Positions 31,894 to 34,770 of a DNA stretch of 64,000 nucleotides are shown one piece after another. Where the stretch lies: NCBI GenBank assembly GCA_949296425.1, contig CASFPN010000043.1:1-64000 (forward strand), in the 5' to 3' direction. The notes beneath the pieces are model-generated. The model was given only the letters and a program-made list of their open reading frames with translations. It was not told where the DNA came from and searched no databases. Each line of letters begins with the position of its first letter. Position 1 is the stretch's first letter. Both the position numbers and the translations under genes were made by a program. The stretch is from an uncultured bacterium. GTDB lineage: Bacteria; Cyanobacteriota; Vampirovibrionia; Gastranaerophilales; Gastranaerophilaceae.

Positions 31894-32937
31894 ATGAAAA
31901 AATTATTTGCATTATTTACAATACTTATGTTAGCAGGTGGATGCGCCTTCGCCAGAACCGCGGAAACGCTTGATGTTTTGCCGTTATTTAATTCAAAATC
32001 GGTGCAGCAAAACAGGTTATGGGTAGGAACTTTTCAGCTTGTTTGGAATGATTTAATGGACGGAATTGTTAAAGGTTCCGTAAAATTTGTTGATTACAAA
32101 TCACCCCTTGCCAAAGAGCTGAACAAACAAACATTTAAGGCTGATGATTTGTCGGAAGATTCTTATTATAAAACCTTTGGAGAAACATCTCCCGAACTTA
32201 AAGCTGAAATTGAAAAGGCGCTTAAAGAAAAATTCGGAGAGACAAGTGATATTCTGAACTCATTTGATTGGACTCCCGCCAAAGGTAAGTTCTTTATTTA
32301 TGCAATGCTGAAAAAAGATTTTAAATTTCTGACAGCATTTGATAAACTAAAACCTGCAAGATTTGCCCGTTCTTTCAAAAAGGTTGACTATTTCGGAATA
32401 GATAAAAACAGTGACAAAATCCTTGATAAAATGGTTCACGTTATGTTTTATAACTCCTCAAACGATTTTGCAATTTCCGTAACAACTCAGGGAAAAGATA
32501 TATTGTATCTTTACAGGACAGATGATAATAAGAACTTTGAAAGATTGTATGCTGATATGTTTATGAAAAAAGCAAAATATGACGGTACACGAGAATTTCA
32601 GGCAAAGGATGAACTAAAAGTGCCTGACATAAACCTTTACAGTGAAAAATCTTTTGATGAATTATGTAATCATCCTATAAAAGATACAGATATAACTATT
32701 GATAAAGCATTAGAAACTGTTGAATTTAAAATGAGTAATGAAGGTGTTAAACTAAAATCGGAAGCTGCTATTGCAACAACAATGTCAATGCCTATTCCGG
32801 TTAAGAAGATTAAACCTCGCAAATTTTACTTTGATGACACATTTGTTTTATTCCTTCAGGAATCTGATAAAGATATGCCATATTTTGCATTAAGAGTAAA
32901 TGATGTTTCATTAATAAATAAAACAGGAAGAAATTAA
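31894..32937 (+). CDS. Exported protein of unknown function
   Basis: 347 residues with a signal peptide, MKKLFALFTILMLAGGCAFA; the Cys at 17 could be a lipobox (LAGGC) or cleavage could follow AFA. The body reads DVLPLFNSKSVQQNRLWVGTFQLVWNDL, and TFVLFLQESDKDMPYFALRVNDV near the C-terminus, which resembles the ends of serpin-like proteins (a conserved core strand then a C-terminal FxLREsxtxxxLFxGRV-like region), but the similarity is loose and I do not assign it. AGGAGAG precedes the ATG. It is the last gene of the BlaI-type operon; a 17-bp inverted repeat starts at its stop codon. Confidence 0.7.
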   Translation: MKKLFALFTILMLAGGCAFARTAETLDVLPLFNSKSVQQNRLWVGTFQLVWNDLMDGIVKGSVKFVDYKSPLAKELNKQTFKADDLSEDSYYKTFGETSPELKAEIEKALKEKFGETSDILNSFDWTPAKGKFFIYAMLKKDFKFLTAFDKLKPARFARSFKKVDYFGIDKNSDKILDKMVHVMFYNSSNDFAISVTTQGKDILYLYRTDDNKNFERLYADMFMKKAKYDGTREFQAKDELKVPDINLYSEKSFDELCNHPIKDTDITIDKALETVEFKMSNEGVKLKSEAAIATTMSMPIPVKKIKPRKFYFDDTFVLFLQESDKDMPYFALRVNDVSLINKTGRN

Positions 32938-33366
32938 CATAAGAGATGTTATCGGAAGCGAACCAATCTGCTAAAGACACCTTGTTGGTACTTTCTTGTA
33001 CCGACAAGCGGATTGCGAGCAGAGGCTGGAGTGGCGGATGCGTTGAGCATTCGGCACGCAATGCCGTTAATAGCGAGCAACCAAGTGAAAGTACCGCAAA
33101 GAAACTCCCGGCAGTCACTCCGTTCACTAATCAATTGTAATTGCTCAACTCAAGCCGGCTAAACTCGCTTATACGTCACCATGAATTTGTTTCAAGGTCT
33201 AATTAATTTTACGCTCAAACAATAGCCGGCTTTGTTGTTGTTTCGCAAACATTGATTGTTCACTACGTTAAATGCCGGATTATTTTTCTATTTTTCGTGC
33301 GCTTCGCGCACTGTAATGACTTATTCTCCTATTTACTTATTATCTTCAAATAACATCTCTTATGTT
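32936..33366. mobile_element. MITE-like element with 17-bp terminal inverted repeats
   Basis: AACATAAGAGATGTTAT (32936-32952) and its exact reverse complement (33350-33366) bound a 431-bp segment that is clearly GC-richer than its surroundings. Inside are a strong hairpin (CTTGTTGGTAC/GTACCGACAAG, 32982-33009, one G-T pair) and GTGCGC-TTC-GCGCAC near 33305. No transposase is encoded; the frames inside are short and unconvincing. No target-site duplication is evident. It accounts for most of the 465-nt gap before radA. A frame through its right end can be joined to radA upstream but has no start signals. Confidence 0.6.
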
Positions 33367-33390
33367 GCAAATATAAAATTATTTTTGTCG

Positions 33391-33402: not shown

Positions 33403-34770
33403 ATGGCAAAAGTTAAATCAAAATGGGTTTGTACGGAATGCGGCTATGAAACAGCCGGTTATTTAGGGAAATGTCCTGAATGCGGAGCATGGGGAAGTTT
33501 GGTTGAAGAAGTTCAATTCGCATCAAAACTTCAGCCGCAGGTTCAGGACGAGTTTATTAATAAAGAAAAGCCGGAACTTTTAAAAGATATTCATATAGGA
33601 GAAGAAGTCAGAGTTTCAACAAATATTTCTGAGTTTGACAGAATTTTAGGCGGCGGGTTGGTTCAAGGTTCTTTGGTTTTAATTGCAGGAGATCCGGGAA
33701 TCGGTAAATCAACAATTCTTTTACAAACAAGCGGTGAACTCTGTAAAAATAATAAAAAGGTTCTGTATGTTTCCGCGGAGGAAAGCGCAAGCCAGTTAAA
33801 ATTGCGTGCTCAAAGACTTTCAATAACTTCTGATAATCTTTATGTTTACCCGCAGACTTTGATGGAAAATATTAAAAATCAGATAGAAGATCTTACCCCT
33901 GATGTTGTTGTTATAGACAGTATTCAGGCAATTTATTCCCAAAATGTTGCAAGCTCTGCCGGAAGCGTTTCGCAAATAAGAGAATGCACAAACCTTTTAA
34001 TGCATATCGCAAAATCAAAGAATATAACAATTGTTGTAATCGGTCATGTTACCAAAGAAGGTAATATCGCAGGGCCGAAAGTCCTTGAACACATGGTTGA
34101 TACCGTAATTTATTTTGAAGGAGATAAATATAAATCTTACAGAATGTTGAGGGCAATGAAAAACCGTTTTGGAAATACATCTGAGGTTGGAATTTTCGAA
34201 ATGAATTCTGACGGACTTAAATGTGTGACAAATCCTAATGAATTATTTTTAAATGAGCGTTCTCAAGTATCTGTTCCTGGAAGCGCTATAGTTGTTACAA
34301 ATGAAGGTACACGTCCTCTTTTGGTTGAGATTCAGGCGCTTGTTGGGACAACTCCTTACCCTACGCCAAGACGTGTTACAAATGGTGTTGATACAAGCAG
34401 AGTTTTACAGATTTTGGCTGTACTTGAAAAGCGTGTAGGGTTAAACCTTTCCAAACAGGATGTTTATGTAAATGTAATGGGCGGGATTGATGTGTCGGAG
34501 CCGTCTGCTGATTTAGGGATTGCTCTTGCTGTCGCAACGTGTGCACGCGATGTTGTTGTAGATCCGCAAACAGTCATAATAGGTGAAATTGGTTTGTCCG
34601 GAGAAATTCATCCTGTTAATAATATTGAAAAACGTTTAAATGAAGCTGTAATGACGGGATTTAAAAAGGCAATAATCCCTTATGCAAACAGGATAGAAGA
34701 TGAACGCATTGAAATAGTTCCTGTAAAACGTCTAATAGATGCAATTACAGCATGTGTTTCTGCTCAGTAG
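33403..34770 (+). CDS. radA: DNA repair protein RadA (Sms)
   Basis: 455 residues, the usual RadA length, which decides the start at 33403. The N-terminal zinc finger uses C10, C13, C24 and C27. Then come the Walker A motif GDPGIGKST, Walker B VVIDSIQAIYS, the RadA-specific KNRFG (in RAMKNRFGNTSEVG) and a C-terminal Lon-protease-like domain (GGIDVSEPSADLGIALAVAT). RadA is a DnaB-like helicase that extends recombination intermediates during repair and natural transformation. A frame extends 49 codons further upstream across the inverted-repeat element, but it has no plausible start signals. Confidence 0.95.
   Translation: MAKVKSKWVCTECGYETAGYLGKCPECGAWGSLVEEVQFASKLQPQVQDEFINKEKPELLKDIHIGEEVRVSTNISEFDRILGGGLVQGSLVLIAGDPGIGKSTILLQTSGELCKNNKKVLYVSAEESASQLKLRAQRLSITSDNLYVYPQTLMENIKNQIEDLTPDVVVIDSIQAIYSQNVASSAGSVSQIRECTNLLMHIAKSKNITIVVIGHVTKEGNIAGPKVLEHMVDTVIYFEGDKYKSYRMLRAMKNRFGNTSEVGIFEMNSDGLKCVTNPNELFLNERSQVSVPGSAIVVTNEGTRPLLVEIQALVGTTPYPTPRRVTNGVDTSRVLQILAVLEKRVGLNLSKQDVYVNVMGGIDVSEPSADLGIALAVATCARDVVVDPQTVIIGEIGLSGEIHPVNNIEKRLNEAVMTGFKKAIIPYANRIEDERIEIVPVKRLIDAITACVSAQ

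Follow-up and report, generated by a model that had tools for sequence, protein, structure and literature searches.

Gene-less, MITE-like cassettes with inverted dif-like ends, probably flipped by Xer-type recombination: a copy upstream of radA and its relatives

The window, that is the whole 64,000-nucleotide stretch of DNA that was analysed, carries on its plus strand a gene for a 347-aa protein (31894-32937; ORF listing and orthologues) followed by radA (33403-34770; ORF listing). Between the two lies a 431-bp segment, 32936-33366, with perfect inverted ends of 17 bp. The left arm AACATAAGAGATGTTAT (32936-32952) is the exact complement of the right arm ATAACATCTCTTATGTT (33350-33366), and complementarity is 91% when the arms are extended to 23 bp. 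The segment begins inside the TAA stop codon (32935-32937) of the 347-aa gene and its right edge is 36 bp upstream of the RadA start at 33403. Its G+C content is 0.418, compared with 0.355 for the window. When the surrounding 2.3 kb was searched for perfect inverted repeats at a spacing of 300-600 bp, 17 bp was the longest match in the real sequence, while none exceeded 14 bp in 200 first-order Markov simulations. Inside the segment every listed ORF is shorter than 70 aa, with overlaps on both strands, and a minus-strand ORF of 105 aa runs across the left end. The preliminary description of a GC-richer segment that lacks a credible gene, starts at the preceding stop codon and has ends unlikely to match by chance was therefore confirmed. 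In the species G090, G099 and G101 (L090, L099 and L101), an ORF resembling a helix-turn-helix regulator lies upstream of radA, where it replaces the terminator region of the 347-aa gene.

The internal hairpins described previously are real, with fold z-scores of -6.2 for the plus strand and -5.4 for the minus strand, and much of the signal comes from nested palindromic modules and from the ends pairing with each other. The suggestion that the segment might be a structured RNA gene was unsupported and has been rejected: no Rfam family matched above its gathering score within the segment, where only weak sub-threshold matches were returned. The body (32960-33342) is a non-coding mosaic of shared modules, as judged from body comparisons and from aligned sister copies, which have their ends and a few body modules in common and are mosaic in the middle. 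A nested 78-bp module (33009-33086, plus strand) is absent with a clean join from most sister copies and occurs alone elsewhere, including in other families of the order. A stem, AAGCCGGCTA / TAGCCGGCTT (33152-33232), evident both as an inverted repeat and in the fold, surrounds a palindromic repeat unit. The core of the 78-bp module, GATTGCGAGC...GCGAGCAACCAAG, surrounds a variable hairpin (L065, L069, L073). In other families of the order this module is also found in frame within coding genes, for example in a prepilin gene encoding FTLAE-ADCEQRLKLAGSGRDPKQASVTPFNASNQ-EKRKAFTLAE; in this it behaves like the Rickettsia palindromic elements.

Using the segment as query, 27 matching pieces at approximately 15 places were found in its own genome, and matches were obtained in 27 of the 39 genomes searched (its own and relatives). 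The segment is multi-copy, and the contrary case of a single copy kept at the same place in all relatives was examined and does not hold. The copies, hereafter cassettes, are single, gene-less units of 340-750 bp situated between chromosomal genes. The earlier proposal of a MITE stands in so far as the segment is multi-copy and some sister-species sites lack it, but its ends are dif-like rather than the terminal inverted repeats of an ordinary transposase. An autonomous relative with the same ends was sought and no gene-bearing pair of such ends was recovered from the end searches and fetched loci, a non-exhaustive search across broken MAG contigs; a single body pattern searched against viral contigs gave zero matches.

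A 28-bp consensus, ACTTCCRATAA-CATnnn-TTATGTAA, was derived from 84 ends representing 42 of 43 curated pairs, L042 having been dropped as a doubtful pair. Positions 1-5 and 24-28 are conserved although they were free in the search, whereas several middle positions were fixed by the motif. Each end shows the layout of a dif site (PMC2731167, PMC11705084, in the parts available), namely an 11-bp arm, a 6-bp centre and a second 11-bp arm, with ATAA and TTAT flanking the centre. The XerC-like arm faces inward and the XerD-like arm outward, so that across the 84 ends each cassette is a segment between two inversely oriented 11-6-11 sites. At the left end of the segment, read on the minus strand, the outer XerD-like arm is TTATGTTAATT (32932-32942; from the end consensus and the host dif arm), the centre is CATCTC (32943-32948) and the inner XerC-like arm is GCTTCCGATAA (32949-32959). 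At the right end, on the plus strand, the inner arm is TCTTCAAATAA (33343-33353; from the end consensus), the centre, equal to that on the left, is CATCTC (33354-33359) and the outer arm is TTATGTTGCAA (33360-33370), which is present without the cassette in G015. Some single matches to the end motif are coding sequence and not cassettes (e.g. L175, L178). A second class of ends, with the centre TATTTA, recurs across species (G000:C41:19202, C16:100750, C42:53844 and relatives) and may represent a separate cassette lineage.

The likely dif site of the host is TATACTTATAA-TATATA-TTATGTAAGAA, in which TTATGTAAGAA is the XerD arm. On a 1.03-Mb contig of G019 the switch in the sampled GC skew falls near 775 kb, and the candidate at 806 kb is the best dif-like sequence in the approximately 120 kb around it. 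Using a pattern with the centre left free, exactly one such site (centre TATATA or TGTATA) was found in each of 26 of the 33 genomes of the genus, the remaining seven giving no match; a pattern demanding A at position 26 misses the host dif in most genomes. Mean conservation of the site is 0.98, as against 0.63-0.85 in neighbouring 28-base blocks (24 loci with enough flank), a value that is high partly by construction as the loci were found by pattern and then filtered. In the segment's own genome the site lies inside a coding gene. That gene is conserved in the genus (L324 at about 1500-1530, G000:C44:36825-36849; orthologues L299-L323; peptide FLHNIYYKY), and the host-dif DNA is constant where the flanks of the gene diverge.

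The arms of the cassettes resemble those of the host dif to unequal degrees. Of the 11 positions in each arm, cassette ends share 6-10 with the host XerD arm and 4-10 with the host XerC arm; the mode for the latter is 6 (44 of 84 ends at 6/11), and five ends reach 10/11. The weak likeness of most inner arms to the host XerC arm counts against recombination by Xer, and it would suit a different tyrosine recombinase, such as the integrase of a phage or conjugative element, acting upon similar arms in place of host XerC/XerD. The own genome contains two XerC/D-type proteins that score above the NF001399 cut-off but fall slightly short of the narrower cut-offs for XerC and XerD, and nine integrase-like matches in all, some of them fragments, from which such an enzyme might be drawn. 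This explanation is nonetheless improbable, since the outer arm equals the XerD-arm consensus of the host and none of the cassettes fetched contains an integrase gene between its ends.

The 6-bp centre differs between copies and is equal, in inverted reading, at the two ends of one copy. The 43 curated pairs were chosen partly by the likeness of their two ends (13/18 or more) and the test of the centres was therefore confined to sets in which the relevant positions had been left free. When all six centre positions were left free, the two ends were identical there in 24 of 26 pairs, the exceptions being L029 (five positions agreeing) and L172 (three). With the triplet free, 18 of 20 inverted pairs in the genus have identical triplets (maximum of 10 after shuffling), and 56 of 60 triplet positions agree in the inverted reading, compared with a mean of 21.5 and a maximum of 41 in 100,000 shuffles. 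Identical centres at both ends were likewise found in 28 of 30 cassettes clustered by site, which had been chosen partly for end similarity. A direct target duplication is absent: in direct orientation the hexamers agree at 39 of 120 positions, and the junctions of aligned sister copies have no common direct repeat. A simple MITE mobilised by a DDE transposase was rejected on the absence of direct duplication. More broadly, an ordinary MITE of a DDE transposase that prefers dif-like or palindromic targets would be short, multi-copy and intergenic with inverted ends, as the cassettes are, yet it is very unlikely given that agreement is inverted (56/60 triplet positions) and not direct (39/120), that a transposase with related ends was not found and that the cassette-free sites described below are not perfect palindromes.

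The excess of matching between ends is limited to the centre and position 7, which agrees in 21 of 26 pairs; little or no excess is seen at positions 23-28 of the outer XerD arm or in the flanks, and little at the variable inner-arm positions 1, 2 and 4. Position 7 lies within the XerC arm, and its matching is left unexplained by a strand exchange limited to the centre, which counts against the Xer reading. It is more readily accommodated if the two ends pair as the stem of a hairpin or cruciform during replication and mismatches are then repaired, inversion arising as a by-product when the short inverted repeats recombine, with no need for Xer; the ends do pair as a stem in folds of both strands. 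Even so, the small excess at positions 1, 2 and 4 tells against correction of this kind, which leaves unexplained both the likeness to host dif on either side of the 6-bp centre and the clean six-base spacing of the cassette-free sites. We regard it as unlikely.

The flanks of 30 cassettes group into nine site clusters of 2-7 species each, with flank homology that extends right up to the junction or stops no more than a few tens of bases short. Among 45 between-species comparisons at the same site, the two cassettes have the same orientation in 14, are inverted in 16, are mixed in nine and share little in six; L161 (G008) belongs to the radA cluster by flank similarity and was left out of these comparisons. 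For example, L031 in the own genome is inverted with respect to L140 (G014) over 277 of 316 bases and has an identical centre. L031 and L164 (G017) lie in the same orientation and have the differing centres ACTATG and GGAATG, each matched internally. At the radA site itself, the own copy is inverted relative to that of G017, and the body of the G023 cassette is largely different. All 16 inversions are between species and no flip was seen within one species or strain, which weighs against the Xer reading. As the bodies of cassettes from different sites are no less alike than those from one shared site, independent insertions in opposite directions could also have given rise to cassettes of opposite orientation.

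Sites without the cassette, which the preliminary description had proposed to look for, do exist in sister species. They were sought at five sites in ten genomes with queries made of the joined flanks. Those of G041 (ACATAA-TAGATA-ATATGTT) and G001 (AAATAA-TTGAAA-TTAAAC) have six bases between the outer arms. The radA site without the cassette reads AATAA-CATATC-TAATG in G018 and GATAG-CATCTC-TTATG in G015; both carry bases resembling cassette ends and may thus be remnants. Minimal remnants, little more than the two ends, are present at one site in G023 and G020, and a shortened cassette is retained at another site in G023. L254 has 11 bases between the arms and L244 about one; L246, L248, L253 and L263 were uninformative in the joined-flank query. 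The cassette-free sites are few and degenerate, a further point against the Xer reading. Splitting of a palindromic target by insertion was rejected as a model, since these sites are not perfect palindromes.

Beyond the genus, a search of 146 genomes of the order with a stricter end motif gave matches in 16, belonging to seven of 40 genera; the reversed control pattern gave none. Pairs with matched ends spaced 312-622 bp apart occur in G077, G081 and G143. G053, from another genus of the family, has 22 ends, 16 of them with the centre CATGGG, in what appears to be a burst, perhaps a recent one, of cassettes sharing that centre (L329-L344). Since one centre is common to 16 of the 22 ends, the centre can travel with the cassette. 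As a general rule, a centre supplied by the target was rejected: these 16 ends lie at different places, and the centre varies among species at one shared site. The partner ends in G053 have a different inner arm, which again does not favour Xer. Of 19 ends, 13 have a partner at 16/20 or better, a count that is no unbiased test, as partners were picked for the greatest similarity to the inverted end, centre included.

Copies, dif-like ends, matched centres, cassettes inverted or replaced at shared sites and a few cassette-free sites are thus read directly from the DNA. Drawn from sequence, the case for Xer comprises the dif layout of the ends, the host dif, the Xer genes, the matched centres, the fading of excess matching from the XerD arm outwards, the inversions and the six-base cassette-free sites. 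Taken together, these data suggest that the segment probably belongs to a family of MITE-like, gene-less cassettes with inverted dif-like ends, which are flipped, and probably moved, by Xer-type recombination. We infer that a tyrosine recombinase of the Xer type, most likely host XerC/XerD, would exchange strands within both 6-bp centres and, as the ends are inverted, flip the cassette in place. Where the two centres differed, each product centre would be a heteroduplex, and after replication both ends of one daughter would carry the first centre and both ends of the other the second. Flipping followed by replication would in this way allow centres to drift between copies yet keep them equal within each copy. 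Inverted sites do not excise, and spread would therefore require an additional step, perhaps rare entry into a degenerate dif-like sequence (ATAA-N6-TTA) or replacement of another cassette, which would leave the family dispersed and mosaic. More tentatively, and possible rather than probable, the recombinase of chromosome dimer resolution may, in the bacterial family to which the window's genome belongs, serve as the transposase of a large gene-less cassette family, flipping its members frequently, keeping their two centres identical by doing so and swapping them at fixed docking sites on the chromosome.

If this is correct, the genome is shuffled by a system that Xer drives and that has no enzyme dedicated to it, and Xer-dependent mobility would extend beyond a few plasmid and phage systems to dispersed, gene-less chromosomal repeats in another phylum. 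In addition, the cassettes would serve as a natural record of inversion at specific sites, in that centres differ between copies and match within each. Flipping could alter expression, since cassettes sit ahead of genes such as radA. The cassettes break assemblies.

No description of such cassettes in this bacterial group, nor of MITEs with dif ends, came up in the literature searched. MITEs are short, non-coding, multi-copy and non-autonomous elements with inverted ends. The cassettes are likewise short, non-coding and multi-copy with terminal inverted repeats, but they differ in that neither a direct target duplication nor a transposase of their own kind was found and in that their ends look like recombinase sites. 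Xer-dependent integrating phages and elements such as CTXphi or IMEX make use of host XerC/XerD and of dif-like sites; they carry genes and enter the chromosome at dif itself, in contrast to the cassettes, which occupy many other sites.

A closer likeness is to the dif modules of Acinetobacter, in particular the C modules, which as far as the accessible text describes them have internal XerC sites and undergo inversion and replacement of single modules (PMC13141974, PMC11705084). In both, the segment is bounded by two dif-like sites in inverse orientation, each with a 6-bp spacer and its XerC arm facing inward, and the cassette arms resemble the host dif, weakly so for the XerC arm in most copies. 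Recombination between plasmids was reported, in the same accessible text, to require closely related central regions (PMC11705084). As described there, the Acinetobacter modules are adjacent in plasmids, with C and D types alternating, and most of them contain genes (one D module without predicted ORFs is mentioned), whereas the cassettes, 340-750 bp in length and gene-less, occur singly and dispersed through the chromosome in another phylum; their centres match at the two ends of a copy and vary from copy to copy. Chromosomal dif modules bounded by extra dif-like sites have been reported in Acinetobacter (PMC12907356); in the part of that report available, these are clustered, gene-carrying and plasmid-like, unlike the cassettes, which are without genes and without clusters. 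As the alternating, gene-carrying plasmid array is replaced here by single gene-less chromosomal units, the cassette is not filed as a dif module, although, judging by its sequence, it appears to work like one.
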